From a virus: DNA of 42,432 bases. How positions within the stretch are numbered: position 1 is the first letter of the stretch; every line of letters starts with the position of its first letter. The notes under the pieces are model-generated. The model saw only the letters and a program-made list of their open reading frames with translations, had not been told where the DNA came from and ran no database searches. The position numbers and the translations under genes are program-made. Of this stretch, positions 4,866 through 22,990 are shown piece by piece. The stretch lies in IMG/VR virus record IMGVR_UViG_3300042294_004190, positions 1-42,432 of that record; one strand, written 5' to 3'.

Positions 4866-7800
4866 ATGAGTGTCATTACTTGGATAACACCTCGAGGCGA
4901 TTTAGGAACCATTCCTGAAAATACGTTTTATTCTTATCAACTTGAAGCGGTTGATAGCAGTCAGCAAGATTTATTTTATAGTTTTATCAGTGGTAATTTG
5001 CCCGGAGGGATGTACGTAACACGCACCGGAGAATTACGCGGAATACCAACTATTCTCAGTTCAGTTAATCAAACATTTGTAAGCACTTTTACTATAAGGG
5101 CAACTAATCCAAACGGAGATGTAGCCGATAGAACTTTTAGTGTAACTGTCAGTAATATCAATGGTCCACAGATAATTCCCAAACCAGATTTTATTGGCGC
5201 ATGGTTTGATGGAAATTTTTTAGATTATACTTTTAATGCTGTAAATGATAATCCAAATGCTGTGCAAACCTGGAGCATTATAGACGGCGACATTCCATTG
5301 GGCACGACATTTGATTCAAATGGTAGATTATCTGGTTATGTAAGTATTATAGCTCAAAATATTACCAGTCTGGGCTTTGAAGCAGCACCAATTGAATCTG
5401 TTATTTACGATGCATTACCAATTAGTACAGATAGATTTTATAATTTTACTGTACAAGCAGATGACGGATTCAAGACTGAGACATATAATGTAAGATTGCT
5501 TATTGTAAGTAAGGGCAATTATACTGCAGATAATAGTCTTACTTTAATAAACAATTCATTTATAAAAGTCGATGCAGATAATAGTTACAGACCAATTATT
5601 TTAAATAACCCTTCATCTCTACCTATTGTTGTTGCAGGTAATACATTTGCTTATAAATTTATTGCCTACGATCCTGAAGATGAAGATGTAAAATGGAAAA
5701 TTGACGAATTAGAATTCAGTGGTATGGACGATTTAGATGCCGCAGCAGAACAAACAATAATTGGAAACGGAACATCAGGTCCATATAGTATGAGTCAATC
5801 ACCATTGAACGCTGCCAGGATAGTTGTACAGGTAAACGGTGTGTTATATACTGCCTATACTGATTACACCACGGCAGGAAATCAATTAACGTTTGTAAGT
5901 CTAACTCCCGGTGTTACTGATACCATCTATATACAATTTATCGCAGTGAATACGGGTTATGATTCAATACTTTTTGATCAAGGAGCCAGTGGGCTACCGT
6001 CTGGGTTATCTATAAATCAGTCTACAGGCTGGGTAATAGGCGTATTACCTGACCAAACAGAAAGTTTTGTGACTTATTCTTTTATAGTTATTGCATATAG
6101 AACTTCAAACATAAATGAACAAAGTGATCCTGTAACTTTTTCACTAACAGTTAAACAAACTATTAATGAAGAAATAATCTGGACGACAGCAAGAGATTTA
6201 GGAACTATTGATAATGGTGCTGTTAGTGAAATAAGTATCAGTGCTTATAACACTTTAGGCAAAGAATTAGTCTATTCGTTAATTTATGCACCGTTTAGGA
6301 AAATTCCACAAGGGCTCAAATTTTTACAAAGTGGGCAAATGGTTGGACGTACTTCGTTTAGATATTTTAGTTTAGATGGCCAATCCGCTACAATTAATGT
6401 TACTTCCACACAAGATTTGACAGTAGGCATGACTGTGCAAGGTGTAGGAGTGGCACAAGGTTGTCGATTAACCGCAATCGTTGATGCTAATACTATAGAA
6501 GTTCGGCCAGCAATTTATGTTACACAAGGATCAATTTTAGTATTTACAAATGATTTAATACAAAAAGCAGTCAGCACAACTACAAATGCGATATCTACTG
6601 TAATTGATAGTGGAACAACAACTTTTGATCAACAATGTGGATTTACTATTAAAGCCACTTCAATTGATGGTACGATTTCGGCCACTAAAGAATTTACAAT
6701 CATAGTAAGGCCAAGAAATTTAGCACCGTATGAAAATGTTTATTTTAAAGCACTACCTAGCTATACAGCAAGAAACAGTTGGGCTAATATTACAAAAGAT
6801 GAAACAATTTTTCCTTCTGAACTTATTTACAGGCCCGATGATACCTATTTTGGTGTACAACAAAGTTTCAAATCTTTATTTTTATCTGGATTAGCAGCCT
6901 CAACTGCGGAAACATTTGTGTCTGCAATAAATAGAAATCATTATTTTAAGAGATTAAACTTTGGACAAATTAAGACTGCAAGAGCAGTTAATGAAAATGG
7001 CGACGTTGACTACGAAGTTGTATATGTTGATCTAATAGATGAACAATCTTTTGGCACTGCAGGTCCTCCTTTAGAAGTTCAATTGACGATAGCAAATAGT
7101 TTTCTTTTTAACAATCAAGCATATAATATTATCTACCCTAATAGTTTCCCTAATATGCAAAAAAGGTTAGAGAATGGAATAGGATATACAAATAGAAGCA
7201 CTTTACCTGGTTGGATGACCAGTGTGCAAGAAGACGGCATGGTTTTAGGTTTAATAAGATGTGTTGTATTGGCATATACAAAACCAGGAGCTTCAAAACT
7301 AATTGCATATAGATTAGAAAACAGTGGATTTGAAATAAATTCTATTCCATTTATTGCAGACAGATACCAATGGGACAACTATCTATCAAGATTTTATAAC
7401 ACAGAAACTAATAGTTTTGAGCCAAGTGTACCCACTACTTTTGACAAATACCCAACTATTACACAAGGATCTGCTATAATTGACACAATTATAACAAATA
7501 CCGTAACGAACTCAAATGTTATTACTATTCCAAATAATATAAACATTGGGTATGGATGGACGGTACAGAGTCGAAGTGCTAACCTGTCAATTCCCGAAAA
7601 CACCACAATTAGTAATTACAACTCAAGTGGCAATGTACTTTCCATAACGAGTAATATAAATGTTCAAGCTGGTCAGAGTATAAGAATCAATGGAGAAGCC
7701 AGCGTTGATTATGCAGTAAGTACCCCGTTTAGCACCATCGATGGGGAAAATTTAAGTGCTGTAAGAGATAATTTCTTAATTGATGGTGTAAGAGAATTTA

Positions 7801-11208: not shown

Positions 11209-11631
11209 ATGGCAGTCGAAAATCCGTTTGATCAAAAACGTGGATATCAATTTGGTTTACACATAGATGGCGAAATAAAACCTCTTCATGACAGTATAAT
11301 TGTTACTGACATGAGCTTTGAAGGTAGACAACTAGCCAGCGGTATAGTATTATTAGGTGATGATGGTAAAACAGACGGCATTCGTCCACGCTGGGCAAGA
11401 GTATATGCTGTTGGACCTGAGCAGCGAGATATTCGTGTTGGTCAATGGGTGCTTGTTGAACACGGCCGATGGAGCCGAGGTGTAAAGATCGTTAAAGATG
11501 ATCAAGAAACGATTATACGCAGAGCAGATCCTGGGGCAATTATTTTTGTATCAGATACCGAACCTGAACACATAGACACAATTTCAAATGCACTCCACGC
11601 AGAACGACGCACAAGAGAACAATACGAATGA
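11209..11631 (+). CDS. GroES-like co-chaperonin (role of T4 gp31)
   Basis: 140 residues, longer than GroES (about 97) and T4 gp31 (111). Residues 22-100 follow the GroES beta-barrel: IKPLHDSIIVTDM, then a loop carrying SGIVLLGDDGKTDG, then RWARVYAVGPEQRDIRVGQW. The SGIVLLG segment matches the GroES mobile-loop IVL tripeptide that docks on GroEL, so contact with host GroEL is likely conserved. In T4, gp31 replaces GroES so that the major capsid protein can fold inside GroEL. The extra roughly 30 C-terminal residues (ISNALHAERRTREQYE) are helical and of unknown role. No GroEL is encoded in this window. Confidence 0.8.
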   Translation: MAVENPFDQKRGYQFGLHIDGEIKPLHDSIIVTDMSFEGRQLASGIVLLGDDGKTDGIRPRWARVYAVGPEQRDIRVGQWVLVEHGRWSRGVKIVKDDQETIIRRADPGAIIFVSDTEPEHIDTISNALHAERRTREQYE

Positions 11632-12428
11632 TATTAACATTACCATTACGCAGAGCTCATACACTTGAGCTGATAGATTACGGCTATGACGACCATTGTA
11701 TTTGGTTAGAAATGGACCATCAATTTGAACGTGTTCCTAGTTTTAAAGAAATTTTTGACTACTATGCTGTAAAAAATCATTGGAGTAAATGGATAACTCC
11801 GGGTACAACCTGCATAGACATAGGAGGACACTCAGGTGATACGGCCATTCCCATGATGGTATACAGTCGTGGAACAGTATTAACAGTTGAGCCCAACCCA
11901 ACTATACGTCCATACCTAGAACTAAACTGCCATCTTAACAGACACTTAGGTGGCACTTTTGTTATTGCCTCAGAAGCAGTTACTGACAAAAATGCAGATA
12001 ATTTAACTTTTAAGGATCATCATAATGGCATGTGTAACGGAGGATTAGTAGGAGAGAATTGGGACGCAGAAACACAGGCCAGGATGGCTGGAATGAGTGG
12101 AGATAGTATTCAAGTTTCAGGATTGACTTTAGAATCAATGTTGCACAAATATCTAACCAATGACGAAATAGCTAACATTGGTTTTATAAAAACTGATACT
12201 GAAGGACACGACATAGAAATTATTCGCAATATTCGTGATATTCTAATAAAATACAAACCCGTGTTGTTTACAGAATGGTTCGCTCAATACAGTCAAGCTG
12301 ATACAGCAGAACTGTTCCGTGTAATAAATGATGCAGGCTATGTTGCATTAAATCCATTGACAATGGAAGAATCAGATCCTAGCATTCGTAGCGAGGATTT
12401 AGTTTGTTTACATCGAGATAATATATGA
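11628..12428 (+). CDS. FkbM-family SAM-dependent methyltransferase
   Basis: 266 residues, overlapping the co-chaperonin by four bases. The SAM-binding signature TCIDIGGHSGDTAIPM (about residues 59-74) is followed by the acidic strand end VLTVEPNPTIRPYLELN. The FkbM-type block IKTDTEGHDIEIIRNI lies at about residues 188-203. Family members usually O-methylate sugars or small molecules. In a phage this could modify a surface glycan, the virion or a host metabolite; the substrate cannot be read from the sequence. It lies between a co-chaperonin and a clamp loader, so the neighbours give no functional clue. Confidence 0.75.
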   Translation: MILTLPLRRAHTLELIDYGYDDHCIWLEMDHQFERVPSFKEIFDYYAVKNHWSKWITPGTTCIDIGGHSGDTAIPMMVYSRGTVLTVEPNPTIRPYLELNCHLNRHLGGTFVIASEAVTDKNADNLTFKDHHNGMCNGGLVGENWDAETQARMAGMSGDSIQVSGLTLESMLHKYLTNDEIANIGFIKTDTEGHDIEIIRNIRDILIKYKPVLFTEWFAQYSQADTAELFRVINDAGYVALNPLTMEESDPSIRSEDLVCLHRDNI

Positions 12429-14253: not shown

Positions 14254-14753
14254 ATACACTTTATTTAGACATGGACGGAGTCGTGGCAGACTTCGATGAG
14301 TATGCTTTTCGTGCATTTGGATTCGCTCCTAGTATTGGCATCTATACTGACGATAAATGGAATAAACTTGCTACAAATCCTAGAATATATCGAGACTTGC
14401 TCCCTACAGAATATGCTCAGCGATTGTACCAAGAGTGTGTTAAACTGTGTTTAAAATATAATTATAACTGGGCATTCTTAACTGCTGTACCAAAAAGAAA
14501 CGATGTTAAATTTGCATTTTATGATAAAGTTGAATGGGCACAAAAATACTTCCCTAATGTGCCTGTTTTTTTTGGTCCATATAGTAAAGATAAACACCAA
14601 CATTGTAAAATCAATGATATTTTGATTGATGATAGACAAAGCAATATTGATGAATGGAATGCAGCAGGGGGTATCGCTATATTACATAGAGATTACGAAA
14701 GTACAATATTACAACTGAATCATTATATGCCGCAGGTTTCGTTACAGGCATAA
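14250..14753 (+). CDS. HAD-family 5'(3')-deoxyribonucleotidase-like protein
   Basis: 167 residues. It opens with LYLDMDGVVADFDEYAFRAF, the HAD motif I with both catalytic aspartates (DMDG). A Ser/Thr motif II is in NWAFLTAVP, a Lys follows, and motif IV is ILIDDRQSNIDEWNAAGG. This arrangement fits the 5'-nucleotidase C family (deoxyribonucleotidases) found in T4-like phages, which dephosphorylate (d)NMPs. It would suit an operon beginning with MazG. It is the last plus-strand gene of the operon, and its final 31 bases overlap the end of the convergent gene at 14723. Confidence 0.75.
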   Translation: MNTLYLDMDGVVADFDEYAFRAFGFAPSIGIYTDDKWNKLATNPRIYRDLLPTEYAQRLYQECVKLCLKYNYNWAFLTAVPKRNDVKFAFYDKVEWAQKYFPNVPVFFGPYSKDKHQHCKINDILIDDRQSNIDEWNAAGGIAILHRDYESTILQLNHYMPQVSLQA

Positions 14754-15712
14754 ATTTTACCTTCTAACACAGTTTTATCCCAAGTTTTTTCGATAGCATT
14801 AAACCATTCAATGGTCCTGTCTAATCCATATTCTAATGCATTATTTTGTTTAATTAAAGGGAGTAATCGAAATGTTCGTGGATCTCCTGGTTTGTTTTTG
14901 GGATACAAACCTAACCAGCAACAAGGATATACTTCCCCATTGGCAGATATATAAATTTCATTATTTTTTTTAGCATAACATGAAATCTTTTTCTCTTGTA
15001 TTGGTACTTTTTTAAGTGTTAAATCAGGATCCTTAATGTAGTGTTTGTATTGATCGTACAGATTATTAAAATCCGTATCACCGTTATAATCACCTATCAC
15101 ATGGCTAAATTTTTTATCTCTTGTAAAAACAACAGTAGTATCTCTACCGGCATCAATCAACTCAAATCTATTAAATCCTAGTTTTTTTGATAATTGTTGT
15201 GCAGTTTCAATTTGATGAAGATTGTGTTTAAATTTTATCATTGCCCAAACTGCAACACCACCAGCTTCAATAAATTTTTTAGCGTTTTCTATAATTAAAT
15301 TATAGTCGGTATATTGACGGTAAAGAACGTGAGTATCTTCGAGCCCATCTAATCTAAATTGAACTTCAACACCTAACTCCCCTAAACGTTTCCAAATATT
15401 TGGTCTACCACTTGCGTTGGTACTTATTATAATTTTTAATTTTTGATTTGAGGATAAAAAATATTCTACAATTTCCAGGCCATCACGAGCAGTAATAAAA
15501 TCTCCAAAATTGCCGTTAATTAATATTTGATCAAGTTGTAATAAGAAAGGAACTGTGAAAATTTGTTGAGCTTGTTCTAAACTCATATCGCATATTGGAT
15601 ATGTGTCTATTATATCAACACCTCGAAAATTTCTTGGACACTCAGGGCACGCCGCGTTGCACCTAGTTGAAATTTCTAAATGAACACGGCGTATATTTTT
15701 ATATTCTAGCAT
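14723..15712 (-). CDS. Radical SAM protein with SPASM/twitch-like C-terminus
   Basis: 329 residues on the minus strand. The 4Fe-4S cluster motif CNAACPEC (C18, C22, C25) follows the first strand HLEISTR. The later radical SAM strands are visible (ILINGNFGDFITA, IIISTNASG, VQFRLDGLED). Near the C-terminus ISCYAKKNNEIYISANGEVY followed by PCCW indicates an auxiliary-cluster domain of SPASM/twitch type. Such enzymes abstract hydrogen from peptides or small molecules; the substrate is unknown. The 3' end overlaps the plus-strand gene ending at 14753. A second, differently organised radical SAM gene is at 39219. Confidence 0.82.
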   Translation of the reverse strand: MLEYKNIRRVHLEISTRCNAACPECPRNFRGVDIIDTYPICDMSLEQAQQIFTVPFLLQLDQILINGNFGDFITARDGLEIVEYFLSSNQKLKIIISTNASGRPNIWKRLGELGVEVQFRLDGLEDTHVLYRQYTDYNLIIENAKKFIEAGGVAVWAMIKFKHNLHQIETAQQLSKKLGFNRFELIDAGRDTTVVFTRDKKFSHVIGDYNGDTDFNNLYDQYKHYIKDPDLTLKKVPIQEKKISCYAKKNNEIYISANGEVYPCCWLGLYPKNKPGDPRTFRLLPLIKQNNALEYGLDRTIEWFNAIEKTWDKTVLEGKIYACNETCGI

Positions 15713-15729
15713 CCAGTATTTAAACTATA

Positions 15730-16479
15730 TCATTCCTCCCCGTATAATTTAAGAACTTCGCTTACAGCAGGATGCCGTCTGACATCTTTGACTGCAAATT
15801 CTACACCAGCAATATATTGGCTATCAAATTTTGACATTAAATTTTGAAAATCCAACAATCCGTTGTCCTTGGCCCTACGGTCGGCCTGCTGTGTATCGCC
15901 TGTAATGACCATCTTGGAGTTTTCGCCTAGTCGAGTTAACAGCATTTTCATCTGACTTGGTGTCGCGTTTTGCATTTCATCTGCAATAATCCACGATTGT
16001 TTAAATGTCCGTCCTCGCATGTATGCTAGTGGAGCAATCTCAATATATTTTTCTTCTAGCAAACGTACGACCTCCTGTGGTCTATAATATTCTTCTACAA
16101 TATCAAAAATAGGCCTAGTCCAAGGTTCCATTTTTTGATTTAGTGTGCCCGGCAAAAATCCATGTTGCTCGTCGTCAACGCCTACTGCCGGTCTGGTTAT
16201 AACAATCTTAGAACATTCACCTGCTCTAAATGCTTTTAACGCAGCCAACACAGCCAACATAGTTTTCCCTGTGCCTGCCGGGCCTGTAGCGTAAACTATT
16301 AAGCGTTGTGGATTTTGTAAGAGATCTATATATTTTTCTTGATTGAGACTTTTAGGGATTAATTGAATGGTGCGGCGTTGTTTTTGATATGAATCAATTT
16401 GTACTACTTGTAATTGTGCTGCTTCGCTTTTTCGGCGCTTGCTCAAGACTTCCTCCTTTGTAGTTGGTGGATCTGTCAT
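15730..16479 (-). CDS. phoH: PhoH-like ATPase
   Basis: 249 residues on the minus strand. Walker A GPAGTGKT is at residues 66-73, the conserved IVITRPAV at 93-99, Walker B IIADEMQN at 164-171 and the ITGDTQQAD motif at 192-200. PhoH-family proteins are P-loop ATPases related to superfamily 1 helicases, probably acting on RNA. They are very common in marine phages, although the link to phosphate stress is unproven. The first about 40 residues are basic and extended relative to the core. A weak TGTAAATA late-type motif lies about 50 bases upstream. Confidence 0.9.
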   Translation of the reverse strand: MTDPPTTKEEVLSKRRKSEAAQLQVVQIDSYQKQRRTIQLIPKSLNQEKYIDLLQNPQRLIVYATGPAGTGKTMLAVLAALKAFRAGECSKIVITRPAVGVDDEQHGFLPGTLNQKMEPWTRPIFDIVEEYYRPQEVVRLLEEKYIEIAPLAYMRGRTFKQSWIIADEMQNATPSQMKMLLTRLGENSKMVITGDTQQADRRAKDNGLLDFQNLMSKFDSQYIAGVEFAVKDVRRHPAVSEVLKLYGEE

Positions 16480-16604: not shown

Positions 16605-17468
16605 TTATTCAAAGCATTGCATTAAAGATTTAGTCGATGTAGGAAAACTATTCAAACCAAAGCATTTCATTGTCATACCTCTTTTTTTAAACTTATATTG
16701 TAAAAGAGATTCACTAATTATATCCAAACTATCCCAAGTAAGACTTTTATTTTGCACGGTGTTTTCAAATATAGTTTGCATAGTAGTGTGTTTATCAATG
16801 ATATATTGTTGTTTTGATAACCAAAGTTTTGAAAATTCGTGCAAACTTTTTTCATCATCAAATGTTAAATTAGAGTATTTAATAATTTTTTGAACAGTTT
16901 CCTCAAAATTATCTAATAAATTTTGAGGATTAAGATTAAGCCAGTTAGATTCTGACAGAGTGTGAGCATCAGTCATCATTGGAATAAAATCTTCATAAGT
17001 TAAACTCAAATATTCGCGTAATTCCCATCGCTGCATATCAGACACTGTTTTATATTCGGAATTCCATTGACGAATATTTTCTAATTTAGATTGCAGTATA
17101 ATTTTATTTGGAATTTTGTAAAAACCAAAAAATTCATTTTTTTCCACTGCTGCTTCGTTATCTAAAGTAATAAAAATAACTTTACTATTCTCATTAAAAG
17201 ATTTAAATTGCAGAATAGTTTCTTTAACTGTAGCGTGATTTAAATTAGGATAAACTGGGGTAAAAATGTTTCCAGAACTTGTTTTTATAAGCTCAAACTT
17301 ATCATGCCATATTAAGTGTGCTTCTTTAGAAAATCCATGCATGGATCCATCATCAAGCACTTGAGTTTCTATTGTTTCAAATTCTTTAGAAAATTTCCTT
17401 ATACAATATTCAATTGTAGAACCAAACCCGCCGGCTGGAAAAAAGATAATTATTTTTCTCGATGCCAT
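16605..17468 (-). CDS. Unknown protein, paralogue of the protein at 18569 (sulfotransferase-like P-loop start)
   Basis: About 287 residues. The ATG at 17468 is preferred to an in-frame TTG six bases earlier. It opens KIIIFFPAGGFGSTIEYCIR, a strand-loop-helix like the PAPS-binding start of sulfotransferases. It clearly matches the divergent gene at 18569: MQRWELREYLSL versus MEVWELREFLSL, NFEETVQKIIK versus RFEETMVNLLK, and CFGLNSFPTSTKSL versus CFNLNIFPTSTVEL at the C-termini. The start overlaps the end of the upstream methyltransferase gene. No catalytic role is proven. Confidence 0.7.
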   Translation of the reverse strand: MASRKIIIFFPAGGFGSTIEYCIRKFSKEFETIETQVLDDGSMHGFSKEAHLIWHDKFELIKTSSGNIFTPVYPNLNHATVKETILQFKSFNENSKVIFITLDNEAAVEKNEFFGFYKIPNKIILQSKLENIRQWNSEYKTVSDMQRWELREYLSLTYEDFIPMMTDAHTLSESNWLNLNPQNLLDNFEETVQKIIKYSNLTFDDEKSLHEFSKLWLSKQQYIIDKHTTMQTIFENTVQNKSLTWDSLDIISESLLQYKFKKRGMTMKCFGLNSFPTSTKSLMQCFE

Positions 17469-17971
17469 TCGCAATATATTCTGTTATTCAAATCATCTTG
17501 AATGTCAACTGCTCGAAAATCAAATTCTTTAGCATAACTTACTAGCAAAGATTTTGACCAAGGAAAAAATTCTATAGATCGGCATTCATTGTTTCCGTGA
17601 TCTTTTAGTCCAGGGTTCACACGCCAATATATTCTAGATTTTGGTTTTAATAAATTTATTACACACTTGATTTGATTTTTAATTGTTTTTTCACTACCAA
17701 AATTAATACTACCTAAACAAAAGGCCACATCAAATCTTAATTCTGTCTCAAAATCTTCTATGGTAGTTTGGTAGTCGGCTTGACCAAATGCAGGATCAAT
17801 TCCAATTAAATTTGCTATTAATGGTTTAAATGAATTAATACCGCATCCAACATCTAGCACCCATTCATCAGGTTTTACTTTTTTAGCAAGACTTAGTCCA
17901 GAATAGTTATAGATATTCAAATGGCCTCGCCAATGCTGACTGAAATAATTATTGAGTAGTTGTTGCTCCAT
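17450..17971 (-). CDS. Class-I SAM-dependent methyltransferase
   Basis: 173 residues from the ATG at 17971. A longer frame reaches 18040 but would overlap the start of the divergent gene at 17985, so the internal start is preferred. SAM motif I is VLDVGCGINSF, followed by the acidic residue in LIGIDPAFG and by FDVAFCLGSINFG as motif IV. It is short for the family. Substrate unknown. It is co-directional with 16605, and its stop overlaps that gene's start. Only 13 bases separate it from the divergent sulfotransferase-like gene, so its promoter must lie inside that neighbour. Confidence 0.75.
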   Translation of the reverse strand: MEQQLLNNYFSQHWRGHLNIYNYSGLSLAKKVKPDEWVLDVGCGINSFKPLIANLIGIDPAFGQADYQTTIEDFETELRFDVAFCLGSINFGSEKTIKNQIKCVINLLKPKSRIYWRVNPGLKDHGNNECRSIEFFPWSKSLLVSYAKEFDFRAVDIQDDLNNRIYCEWHREK

Positions 17972-17984
17972 ATAATTACTTATT

Positions 17985-18572
17985 ATGCTACCCGAGAGAA
18001 TATTTTTTACAGGCGTGCCCGGATCGCGATGGTCCGGCATTGCTCAAATTTTGGAAACAATTCCTGGATTTAATACCAGTGACCGTACACCAGAACGCAC
18101 TTACACGCATCATAGTTATACCGGACATTTAGGAGCCTATTTTGGATGGGGTATGGAGTTTGAACCTGTTATTAAATGGGTAGGAGAAAATTATATAGAC
18201 CAAGCTTGGAAAGATCCTGGTGGTTGCCGTTTAGTGAAAAGTCACCAATGGCCAGATAAATTTGATGAAATAGAGAAATTTTATCCAGATGATTGGATTA
18301 TGTTAGTGTATCGTCCTGATATGTCCAGTTTTGCCTGGTGGCATGAGGCCGGAGGATTTCAAATTAAATACCCTAGCTATGAATGGTATAAAGATGAAGC
18401 AGATATGTTACACGAGATATCAAGAACCAATAAACTTATATTGGAGTATGCTTGCAAAAAACAAGCTAATTGGAATTATTTTACGCCAAAATGGGTAGTA
18501 GAAAACTTTGGTACAGCGATACAAATTCCAAAAATACATTCGGACATATTAGTAACCTTAATAAAACAATGA
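17985..18572 (+). CDS. Sulfotransferase-like protein
   Basis: 195 residues. The N-terminus IFFTGVPGSRWSGIAQILE matches the 5'-phosphosulfate-binding loop of PAPS-dependent sulfotransferases (strand, small-residue loop with R/S, helix). CRLVKSHQWPDKF corresponds to the strand preceding the 3'-phosphate region, and WIMLVYRPDMSSFAWWHEAG supplies the R..S motif. Such enzymes move sulfate from PAPS to sugars or other hydroxyls; the substrate is unknown. The gene is divergent from the methyltransferase at 17450 and overlaps the next gene by four bases (ATGA). Confidence 0.72.
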   Translation: MLPERIFFTGVPGSRWSGIAQILETIPGFNTSDRTPERTYTHHSYTGHLGAYFGWGMEFEPVIKWVGENYIDQAWKDPGGCRLVKSHQWPDKFDEIEKFYPDDWIMLVYRPDMSSFAWWHEAGGFQIKYPSYEWYKDEADMLHEISRTNKLILEYACKKQANWNYFTPKWVVENFGTAIQIPKIHSDILVTLIKQ

Positions 18573-19570
18573 ACGATAGAGTGGCAATTTATTACCATCC
18601 AGGAAATTATGGAACTTTTGTTGAATGGTGTTTGAACTATTTTAGTGATCCATTATTTAATGTTGAATTGCCATTTAATGAATCCGGAAATGCTCATAAA
18701 TTCAACAAACATACTGTTGTAGCCTCAGATAAAATGTTTCAAGAAGCTGTAAAAAATAACAACAAATTTGTAAGATTACATCCAGGGTCTACCAGTTATG
18801 AATTTAGAAAATTATTGCTAACTCCAAAACAAACAGTGAATTGTTACAGACAAGAATTAAAATTACTTGAACAACATTTTAATTATATAATTGTTATACA
18901 TTGTAACATTGAAAATATGCTGTGGTATAATAATAATGTGATAAAATGTTTTGATGAAAAAAATTACATTAATTTAAAACACATAGAGCGAAATGAAATT
19001 CAAGATTATGAAGGAGTATTCTCTAAGAGTTTAAATGAACATATTTTGTTTAGGCTTAAGGAATCTAGTAAACACCTTGTTGCAAGTTGGAATAAGGATT
19101 CCATACAAGATATGGAAGTTTGGGAACTAAGGGAGTTTCTTTCTTTATATCTGTATGAAGAATGGATAAATGTACATCAGGAATTAGGCATACTTGATAA
19201 AGAATTTCCTAACATAATATTTTTAGAAATAAGTCAATTACGAGACAGGTTTGAAGAAACAATGGTCAATCTATTAAAAAGTCTTAATTTAAAACAAATT
19301 AGGCATGATGTAAATTATGTTTTTGAAAATTGGAGTAAACTGCAATATTTTAAAACTAGAGATTCAGAAGTAAACAATATTGTTCGTTGTATTATGGATG
19401 GTAAGGACCTTTCGTGGCACGAGTTATCAATCATTGACGAAGCAGAAATACAGCGACAACTTAGAAATAATGGATGGGAAATACAATGTTTCAATTTGAA
19501 TATTTTTCCTACCTCTACGGTAGAACTGAGACCTTTACTCCTGAAAATAAACAATGATTATCAACACTAG
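18569..19570 (+). CDS. Unknown protein, paralogue of the protein at 16605
   Basis: 333 residues. The ATG at 18569 (MNDRVAIYYHPGNYGTFVEW) overlaps the previous stop as ATGA and is chosen over upstream in-frame ATGs that lie inside the sulfotransferase-like gene. The strand-loop-helix HPGNYGTFVEWCLNYF resembles a sulfotransferase P-loop. It shares the WELREFLSL block, the FEET helix and the C-terminal FPTSTVEL with the divergent gene at 16605. A 60-base line inside it (19141) counts only 27% GC, lower than typical structural genes here. No catalytic residue is identified with confidence. Confidence 0.7.
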   Translation: MNDRVAIYYHPGNYGTFVEWCLNYFSDPLFNVELPFNESGNAHKFNKHTVVASDKMFQEAVKNNNKFVRLHPGSTSYEFRKLLLTPKQTVNCYRQELKLLEQHFNYIIVIHCNIENMLWYNNNVIKCFDEKNYINLKHIERNEIQDYEGVFSKSLNEHILFRLKESSKHLVASWNKDSIQDMEVWELREFLSLYLYEEWINVHQELGILDKEFPNIIFLEISQLRDRFEETMVNLLKSLNLKQIRHDVNYVFENWSKLQYFKTRDSEVNNIVRCIMDGKDLSWHELSIIDEAEIQRQLRNNGWEIQCFNLNIFPTSTVELRPLLLKINNDYQH

Positions 19571-19599: not shown

Positions 19600-19830
19600 A
19601 TGAAAGATCACGTTTGGTATATTAAATACTGTAGTGCCGTAACAATTTTAACTGCTATGGTATTTCATGTATTAGGTATTACGCCCTGGAACAGTTTCTT
19701 ACAAATGCTAGGCGCAGCAGGATGGGTCTATGTAGGCTATCGTTGGAAAGAACGTGCCCTAATGCTTAATTTTATTCCACAGTTTTTTATAATCATTCCA
19801 GGTTTAATTTATATGTATTTTTATAGGTGA
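19600..19830 (+). CDS. Small membrane protein (DUF6552-like)
   Basis: 76 residues with two or three membrane segments: around 8-26 (YCSAVTILTAMVFHVLGI), 31-48 and 56-74 (FIPQFFIIIPGLIYMYF), separated by a short basic turn (GYRWKERA). The layout resembles small phage membrane proteins I know as DUF6552; that label is a tentative memory match. A similar layout occurs at 41523. No signal peptide or lipobox, and only a weak ribosome site. Confidence 0.6.
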   Translation: MKDHVWYIKYCSAVTILTAMVFHVLGITPWNSFLQMLGAAGWVYVGYRWKERALMLNFIPQFFIIIPGLIYMYFYR

Positions 19831-19834
19831 TATT

Positions 19835-20497
19835 ATGATGTTAAATGTTCGAGGTGTTTTTGAAACTGACGATCGTTGGCCTTTGCGATTGACCAAACTA
19901 GAAGCAGGAGAGAGTCGTGCCTTTGATTCAACTCGAGGCACTTACTACGTTATGTTGCAGCACGCTAGTTATTACAGTGACACGGTAAAATTAGAAAATG
20001 TAAATGCTGCATTGACAATTAATAATCATTTTACTATCAAGTGTAATCAAGGAACTGCCGTGGTAATTGAATACATGGGCTTACGATTGTTAGAAAGCAG
20101 ATACTATGTACAAGACAAACTAGGTATGGGCAACCTAAGTTACATGGATGGTGGTACCAACACAACAGCAGTAAATCCCGGCCGCTTAGGTGATCCTGTA
20201 ATTAATTATGTTTTTTTTCCTGCCGGAATGCAGCAAACACTACATACTCATCCAAGTCATCGTGTTGGAATAGTCATTAAAGGAAAAGGAAAAGTTGATT
20301 TAGATAATGGAGATTTCTTATTGCAGCAGGGCGACGTTTTCTTTCTGCAACGTAATGTTTTGCACAACTTTATGTGCCCTTATAACGAAGATGTTGTATT
20401 GTTTGTATTTGCTCCTGATTCTGGCACTGGTCCAACAGATGAAGTTAACCCTTTGAAAATTAGAACTTATGTCGGACAACAAAGATACGCAAGATAA
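19835..20497 (+). CDS. Cupin-domain protein
   Basis: 220 residues. A beta-rich N-terminal half (residues 1-110) precedes a complete C-terminal cupin. The metal motif is HTHPSHRVGIVIKGKGKVDL, followed by LLQQGDVFFLQRNVLHNF with the second-motif histidine. The N-terminal half may be a degenerate second cupin. Possible roles include sugar-nucleotide isomerase or small-molecule dioxygenase; no substrate can be assigned. The last 29 bases overlap the next gene. Confidence 0.75.
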   Translation: MMLNVRGVFETDDRWPLRLTKLEAGESRAFDSTRGTYYVMLQHASYYSDTVKLENVNAALTINNHFTIKCNQGTAVVIEYMGLRLLESRYYVQDKLGMGNLSYMDGGTNTTAVNPGRLGDPVINYVFFPAGMQQTLHTHPSHRVGIVIKGKGKVDLDNGDFLLQQGDVFFLQRNVLHNFMCPYNEDVVLFVFAPDSGTGPTDEVNPLKIRTYVGQQRYAR

Positions 20498-21143
20498 ACG
20501 TTTGCTAATTATAACCGGGCCTCAGGGATCTGGTAACCATTTATTCAGCAGACTGTTAAGTTTACATCCTAGTGTTTCTGGATGGGAAGAGTTGAAAGAA
20601 AAGTATTGGGTTCCAAGTGATTTGGAACCGTTTGCTGATTTTTGGATCAATCCTGAGTCGCTTACCCGAGCTAAATTTTATGGGTATAAATATCATTTGG
20701 CCAATGTCAGTTGTCCGTTTATGTACGACGGAGTTCGCTATGTGCCAAAAATTTTAGAAGTTGCAGAACATGCCAGTGTATTGGGTGTTGATGTACAGAT
20801 CGCAATAATCGTGAGAGATCAGAATATCAATGCAGAACAACAACGGCGTGTGCGTGGCGAAGTTACAACACCTATAGCTCAAAACTACTATTATAATACA
20901 TTATTGACTTCTAAATTTCCGGTACATTTTTTAGATCATGAAGCATTTTTCCTGCATAAACAACATTACTTGAAATGGATATCTAAAATACTTGATTTTC
21001 CGGTTGAGTTAGACAGTGAAAAAATCAATCAATTTATAGATAAAGACGCTAACCATAAGTACATTAAGTATGTTGAGAAATACTGGTTGGACCAGGAAGT
21101 TTGGTCAGGCATACGGTCTAAAGAAGCTCGCGGTTTAAAATAA
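20469..21143 (+). CDS. Sulfotransferase-like P-loop protein
   Basis: 224 residues. LLIITGPQGSGNHLFSRLLS (about residues 12-31) is a clear P-loop-like segment followed by a helix and HPSVSGWEEL, as at the start of sulfotransferase-family proteins. VDVQIAIIVRDQNINAEQQR is consistent with the R..N/S 3'-phosphate-binding segment. It could instead be a kinase-like P-loop protein. It is the last gene of the accessory island before the late promoter at 21146. Confidence 0.62.
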   Translation: MSDNKDTQDKRLLIITGPQGSGNHLFSRLLSLHPSVSGWEELKEKYWVPSDLEPFADFWINPESLTRAKFYGYKYHLANVSCPFMYDGVRYVPKILEVAEHASVLGVDVQIAIIVRDQNINAEQQRRVRGEVTTPIAQNYYYNTLLTSKFPVHFLDHEAFFLHKQHYLKWISKILDFPVELDSEKINQFIDKDANHKYIKYVEKYWLDQEVWSGIRSKEARGLK

Positions 21144-21178: not shown

Positions 21179-21874
21179 ATGAACGCAAAACAATTTGTAC
21201 AAAAAATCGTTGACGATAATCAAGCACTTTTCCGTGCCAGCCAACATAATGTAAAGGCTTATTTTGACAGCAAGCCAACACAAGAAGAGCTTGTTGAACA
21301 TTTTATCGGACGCATGGTTAACGAGCGCATGAATATGGTAGAGATTAGCCAAGCTATTGCTAACATGCCAGCAGACGCAGATCCAGTTGAGCTACAACTG
21401 CTTACCCAACAAGCACATGATGAAGCCGTACACTTCCGCTTAGTTAAAGAAGTCATTGAGCATATTCAAGGCTCCCCAGTTGACGTCGAAGCTGCTATTG
21501 CTCGTGAAGCAGCTAAGCCAACTGCTAAAGGTGCCGGACTATTGGCCAAGTATGGCGCACAAGATGATGCTGCTGCTTTAGCTGCTTATCAATTGGTAGC
21601 TGAAGGGCGAGCAGAAGCTGTATGGAATCAAATGGCCGACTGCATCGAAGACGAATTCATTAGCAAAGCATACGCTAAAATTGCCAAGGACGAAGGCTTC
21701 CACAGCAAGATAGGTGCTAGGGCATTAGAAAAACTAGTTACTTCCAAAGAAGAACAACAGCGTATTTCGTTATTAGTTGCACAAATGCGTCGAGATTTGT
21801 ATGAAATCAGCTGCCGCAACACTACAGCAGCAGAAGACGGAAAGCAATTAGTAGCAGACGCTTACGGCTGGTAA
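21179..21874 (+). CDS. Ferritin-like di-iron protein
   Basis: 231 residues, almost all helical. The metal pattern of a four-helix di-iron bundle is visible: E49 in VNERMNMVEI, E82..H85 in HDEAVHF, E142 or E146 in VAEGRAEAVWN, and E172..H175 in KDEGFHSKIG. The two E..H motifs are the hallmark of the superfamily, which includes ferritins, oxygenases and R2-like oxidases; the subfamily is not settled. Two 60-base lines counted (21421 and 21661) are 45-47% GC, well above the 27-33% of three other lines counted elsewhere. A late promoter and strong ribosome site suggest high late expression. Confidence 0.72.
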   Translation: MNAKQFVQKIVDDNQALFRASQHNVKAYFDSKPTQEELVEHFIGRMVNERMNMVEISQAIANMPADADPVELQLLTQQAHDEAVHFRLVKEVIEHIQGSPVDVEAAIAREAAKPTAKGAGLLAKYGAQDDAAALAAYQLVAEGRAEAVWNQMADCIEDEFISKAYAKIAKDEGFHSKIGARALEKLVTSKEEQQRISLLVAQMRRDLYEISCRNTTAAEDGKQLVADAYGW

Positions 21875-22441: not shown

Positions 22442-22990
22442 ATGGCCACAGATATAAACGACGTTTTAGAAAACATAAAAGAAATTTCAATGACAGACAG
22501 TGCTGTTAATACATTGCTGGATTTTGAACGTGTTATAGATGAACTTGACGTATATGCATTTCAAAATTGGAAGCGTGGTGAACTTGTACAAGGGCCAAAA
22601 TACGAAAAATATTTTGTTGTTTGTACATTCATGTGGCCTTACAAAAAAATGCCAGATCCTAGAGGAGGCGAACGCCTGCTAGATTATGGCTGTGAAATCA
22701 AGTACAAAAAAGACATACTAGAGTATCCTATTAAAGTTAAAGATCAAAAAGACTTTAAACCCGGCACAAAAGTACCTAAATTAGCTAGAGCGCCAGTTTG
22801 GTTGGTTGAAATTGTAATGCCAAAAAAACTCATGCAAGAAATTAATCAGGGCAGTTTGGAACTGGAGTCAGGTACAGTAGATGTTGAAGATATTGAATCA
22901 AGTTATGAAGAAGGACTTGATCAAAAGGAATATCAGACTGATGCAGAATCACCCAACGCAGCAGCGCAAGGAATGCCAAATGCAGCATAA
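22442..22990 (+). CDS. Conserved phage protein, unknown function
   Basis: 182 residues. An N-terminal helix is followed by a mixed alpha/beta core with KYEKYFVVCTFMWPYKKMPD and RGGERLLDYGCEIKYKKDI, and then an acidic, Ala/Asn-rich disordered tail. I have an impression of similar proteins in marine T4-like phages but cannot name a family. It overlaps the next gene by 11 bases, and the two are probably expressed together. Confidence 0.65.
   Translation: MATDINDVLENIKEISMTDSAVNTLLDFERVIDELDVYAFQNWKRGELVQGPKYEKYFVVCTFMWPYKKMPDPRGGERLLDYGCEIKYKKDILEYPIKVKDQKDFKPGTKVPKLARAPVWLVEIVMPKKLMQEINQGSLELESGTVDVEDIESSYEEGLDQKEYQTDAESPNAAAQGMPNAA

Follow-up and report, generated by a model that had tools for sequence, protein, structure and literature searches.

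Two members of a divergent family with a predicted sulfotransferase-like fold lie in a recurrent, loosely assembled gene island of phages

The stretch of DNA described here (the window) is an entire IMG/VR record of 42,432 bases, and the sequence of its first 19,278 bases appears to run on into a 107.6-kb contig of a second IMG/VR record, with identity throughout the 10,671 bases compared. The clamp-loader gene of the window shares 53% identity with its counterpart in PA5oct-like Pseudomonas jumbo phages, which would place the phage within the T4-like supergroup of large phages; a gene for an FkbM-type methyltransferase (PF05050, E 1.2e-12; window 11628-12428) adjoins it. Our subject is a block of four genes (Table 1), in which a methyltransferase-like gene (MT) and a sulfotransferase-like gene (ST) lie back to back, flanked by two paralogues, parA and parB, of a family that we name FAM. 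The best start for parA is the ATG at 17468, giving an overlap of 19 nt with the stop of MT, and that for parB is the ATG at 18569, overlapping the stop of ST by 4 nt; these overlaps between reading frames suggest co-translation of parA with MT, and of parB with ST. The divergent starts of MT (17971) and ST (17985) are separated by only 13 bases (17972-17984), such that promoters would have to sit within the opposite genes, and a promoter search between the two gave a signal that was not above that of shuffles.

Table 1. Coordinates of the genes and features discussed; positions refer to the window unless a related record is named
Feature	Position	Strand	Remarks
Radical SAM/SPASM gene	14723..15712	-	Within same minus-strand run; phrog_21308 E 1.8e-21; PF04055 E 0.0015
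PhoH-like gene	15730..16479	-	Left border of island; PF02562 E 1.7e-68
parA (FAM paralogue A), 287 aa	16605..17468	-	Sulfotransferase-like fold (predicted) without canonical PAPS residues
C-terminal module of parA	16608..16841	-	Same module as that of parB
MT, methyltransferase-like, small class I SAM type, 173 aa	17450..17971	-	
ST, sulfotransferase-like P-loop gene, 195 aa	17985..18572	+	GxPGS loop, K-S-H motif, R110
parB (FAM paralogue B), 333 aa	18569..19570	+	
C-terminal module of parB	19331..19543	+	EAxIQxxLRxxGxELKCYNLNxFP
DUF6552 small protein	19600..19830	+	Conserved-island member; PF20189 E 8.9e-12
cupinB, cupin-domain protein	19835..20497	+	PF07883 E 1.7e-11
ST2, candidate P-loop-like transferase	20469..21143	+	GPQGSGNH loop, invariant RD; tandem in some loci
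Ferritin-like / PaaA-PaaC-like protein, candidate di-iron oxygenase	21179..21874	+	PF05138 E 5.6e-4, PF13668 E 1.9e-3, both under curated cut-off
Class I glutamine amidotransferase / peptidase C26	21876..22424	+	PF07722 E 8.7e-13
Conserved protein of island	22442-22990		
Desaturase fusions	L058:7872-9029, L061:7794-9047, L074:5090-6256		Adjoin DNA polymerase-like gene
Short APS-kinase-like genes	L077:586-1020 (-), L078:835-1260, L079:651-1064 (-)		In large FAM-carrying phage records

The original prediction, made from the sequence of the window, held that the two outer genes are clearly related, and this is borne out: parA and parB are 27% identical over 322 aa (BLASTP, E 2e-24), and every word quoted in its support is present (WELREYLSL/WELREFLSL, FEETVQKIIK/FEETMVNLLK, and FPTST in both). 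It also described a near mirror-image block. Here the gene order stands, and a common mirrored origin does not. The syntenic relative of parA, again located between PhoH and MT, is found in L047 (43% identity), and in a maximum-likelihood tree parA groups with L047:7998 and L053, on a branch that is not starred; the nearest relative of parB is that of L039 (53% identity), with which it groups at a support of 100/100, and constraining parA and parB as sisters is rejected (p-AU 7e-49). The paralogues belong to different clades, or subfamilies, of separate ancestry, and the ‘mirror image’ is therefore one of gene order only. Long inverted repeats were looked for in the DNA of the block and none were found, which together with the tree rules out an inverted duplication as its origin. 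A reading of the pair as a mirrored outer unit is not supported either, since a close sister (L011/L012) has the same PhoH-MT-ST-DUF6552 arrangement with neither FAM gene.

Alignment-based scans of IMG/VR viral contigs gathered FAM relatives in 32 clusters. Sequence searches of Pfam, PHROGs, NCBIfam and the PDB returned no convincing match, INPHARED phage genomes yielded no relatives, and none were confirmed in bacterial or archaeal genomes, where the scan used a single short peptide pattern and is weak evidence of absence. FAM is a previously unnamed, virus-associated family, encountered in this analysis only in viral contigs. One relative (L109:659-1367) has its frame broken into two overlapping frames, and may be a copy in decay or reflect an error in sequencing; other relatives keep the frame intact.

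An AlphaFold2 model of parA, built from a 27-sequence alignment, is of high confidence (pLDDT 92.8, pTM 0.90), and it bears out the anticipated likeness to sulfotransferase folds at a distant level: in a Foldseek comparison with the PDB, sulfotransferases account for 50/50 of the best matches listed (best E 1.7e-4). TM-scores against solved sulfotransferases are just 0.26-0.39, with large rmsd, and parA thus resembles the fold family rather than any single enzyme. Against BFVD, the top matches are uncharacterised proteins of uncultured Caudovirales (TM 0.55-0.65), followed by several proteins named sulfotransferase. By homology, we infer the same fold for parB. On the strength of the model, FAM is best described as a divergent family of predicted sulfotransferase fold, and not as a demonstrated sulfotransferase.

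The comparison with cytosolic and bacterial PAPS-dependent sulfotransferases (such as SULT2A1, PDB 3rnl) makes this distinction clear. The predicted topology is the same, with a β-loop-helix start and parallel strands, but the catalytic lysine of the 5'-phosphosulfate loop is absent after the first strand in 27/27 FAM members, the 3'-phosphate Arg/Ser motif (R-x7-S) is absent from its expected region, and FAM carries an additional, invariant C-terminal module. The suggestion that both paralogues open with a PAPS-binding-like loop accordingly survives only in part: the strand-loop-helix does lie within a sulfotransferase-like fold (in the parA model), but the residues do not support use of PAPS. 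Judged on its residues, FAM would fall outside the PAPS-dependent sulfotransferases on two defining features, and may still act as a group transferase. Of its 12 invariant positions, 11 fall in the C-terminal half (R151, E152, S155, W216, E253, Q257, C269, L272, N273, F275 and P276, parA numbering), and P74 is the twelfth.

The most conserved part of FAM is the C-terminal module of ~60 residues, with the motif EAxIQxxLRxxGxELKCYNLNxFP. Together with a short WxxRExxS stretch, the same module forms the N terminus of fatty-acid desaturase-like proteins in three lineages (L058, L061 and L074), each with three intact His boxes; Pfam FA_desaturase (PF00487) is matched by L061 (3.2e-12) and L074 (8.5e-7), and the assignment of L058 depends solely on alignment and its His boxes. 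When the fusions are left out of the FAM profile, it still recovers all three, at E 3e-22 to 3e-17. Neither parA nor parB, in contrast, has a desaturase domain. Because these fusions retain the module but lack the sulfotransferase-like core, it probably constitutes a recognition unit in its own right.

Turning to the two inner genes, MT has weak matches to Pfam Methyltransf_25 (E 0.056) and to the PDB (E 0.029), and its D-x-G-C-G motif (a candidate SAM-binding motif I) is invariant across 12 relatives. In ST, residues P12-G13-S14, K85-S86-H87 and R110 are invariant in 13/13, with a W, not S, at position R+8; a fold search returned a mix of NMP kinases (adenylate-kinase-like) and sulfotransferases at E 0.025 and above, and ST is likely to be of sulfotransferase-like class. 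The MT/ST pair was found in 15/15 viral loci of the ST search. FAM and ST profiles do not align convincingly, and no direct profile homology between the two was seen (hhalign probability 1.2%). Sulfotransfer_3 (PF13469) genes have been reported from marine OM43 phage genomes, where the function of phage sulfotransferases is said to remain unclear (PMC10580990). FAM is likewise phage-borne and sulfotransferase-like, but has no Pfam match to PF13469, and a single ST relative reaches it, at E 0.059.

These observations bear upon the most straightforward alternative that we considered, in which FAM, ST and ST2 are all PAPS-dependent sulfotransferases of a plain sulfation cassette that acts on a small molecule or a glycan and obtains its PAPS either from the host or through an APS-kinase-like enzyme of the phage. 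The predicted fold of parA and the retention of the GxPGS, KSH and R110 elements by ST are consistent with this, as is the HP that follows the R/V strand in members of the parB clade and resembles the KTHLP catalytic region. An APS-kinase-like gene is also present, above the Pfam cut-off, in four large FAM-carrying records (G005, G007, G016 and G017); against this, the encoded proteins score 27-40 bits where NCBIfam cut-offs are 127 and above, and the 107-kb contig of this phage, itself incomplete, contains none. Taken with the missing P-loop lysine and Arg/Ser motif of FAM, this leads us to consider a simple sulfation cassette unlikely. (The APS-kinase-like gene was also tried as a marker of the clade and set aside as unspecific, with relatives in Stenotrophomonas, Xanthomonas and Clavibacter phages.)

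Beyond the window, the order PhoH, MT, ST, DUF6552, ferritin-like protein, amidotransferase, ST2 and conserved protein recurs, whole or in part, in related records. FAM occupies at least five positions within it: between PhoH and MT (the window and L047), between MT and ST in either orientation (L040-L042, L056 and L047), after ST (the window and L039, which has only parB of the two FAM genes), after DUF6552 (L014-L017) and before DUF6552 (L026). The proposed four-gene cassette is therefore to be recast; what is conserved is the MT/ST pair with its downstream genes, and FAM is a shifting accessory, as its absence from L011/L012 indicates. The genes do recur together, as had been supposed, with both MT and ST lying ≤6 kb from FAM in 8/32 clusters (two of these with two FAM copies), a raw count for which there is no background rate; the remaining 24/32 have no MT/ST pair near FAM, partly because of contig ends. 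A radical SAM gene lies within 6 kb of FAM in 12/32 clusters, again as a raw count with no background rate, and frequently accompanies FAM where it sits among replication genes. In L112, a gene that reads as amidinotransferase-like (6501-7634) has the helicase-like gene on one side and a radical SAM gene on the other. The island is real, recurrent and loosely assembled, and in the window it holds two members of the new family of divergent, predicted sulfotransferase fold.

It could nonetheless be argued that FAM genes are unrelated ‘morons’, acquired phage by phage, and that their neighbourhood is a variable insertion spot with no common pathway. Their absence from close sisters would fit, as would the locations of FAM elsewhere, where it is flanked by genes for a primase and a replicative helicase, precedes a gp47-like gene or, in the desaturase fusions, adjoins a DNA polymerase gene (all names read from the sequences). 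The association with MT and ST in varied positions and orientations, and that with radical SAM genes, argue against such independent acquisition, with a strength that is uncertain for lack of a background rate, and we regard it as rather unlikely.

The same locations beside primase, helicase, gp47 and polymerase genes, along with the NMP kinases among the fold matches of ST, might instead point to a FAM protein that acts on nucleic acid, be it a replication accessory, a DNA-hypermodification kinase or a homing-like element. Fold searches with FAM lead to sulfotransferases and not to kinases or nucleases, there is no Walker A lysine, and the fusions of its module are to desaturases, all of which make a role of this kind very unlikely.

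Last, the island amidotransferase deserves comment. Gamma-glutamyl-CDP-amidate hydrolase (NF045546) is the best NCBIfam family for 4/4 amidotransferases tested (window, L011, L026 and L041), but all are far under its cut-off of 250, the window protein at 55.9 bits (E 5.9e-15) and its relatives at 49-92 bits (for L041, 92.4 against 46 for the next family). A phosphoramidate-like transfer, in which the amidotransferase and the APS-kinase-like proteins of the four large records would serve as gamma-glutamyl-CDP-amidate hydrolase and cytidine-diphosphoramidate kinase (roles that we equate, by assumption, with those of the C. jejuni enzymes) and a sulfotransferase-fold protein would take the transferred group from a PAPS-like 3'-phospho donor, is a weak competitor and most improbable, since NTP_transferase, NTP_transf_3 and PPDK_N were all absent from the six, possibly incomplete, records searched, leaving the cytidylyltransferase and glutamine kinase steps missing and the full pathway not found, and since the PAPS reductase family, sought as a sign of sulfate metabolism, was likewise absent.

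Synthesising these findings, we tentatively favour a model in which FAM is accessory cargo within a tailoring island of large T4-supergroup phages that most likely modifies one class of target. MT and the sulfotransferase-like enzyme ST would form the core of the island, with DUF6552, the amidotransferase, the ferritin-like protein, ST2 and cupins as companions, and the shared target would be, for example, a glycan or lipid of the host envelope, or a small metabolite. We suggest that ST may act as a group transferase, that the C-terminal module of FAM may recognise the target or a partner, and that its degenerate P-loop core may either use a non-canonical donor or serve as a scaffold; the island would presumably be of benefit to the phage. 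We also consider, as a distinctly improbable combination, that the module is a new targeting domain through which varied tailoring enzymes are brought to a single shared substrate or carrier, and that the sulfotransferase-fold part transfers a non-sulfate group from an unusual donor.

Whichever of these applies, the analysis defines a hitherto unnamed family with a predicted sulfotransferase-like fold, in which most of the invariant residues fall outside the donor site, together with a portable module also present on desaturases. It thereby offers a concrete handle on the role of phage-borne sulfotransferase-like genes, with both residues and partners now named for tests.
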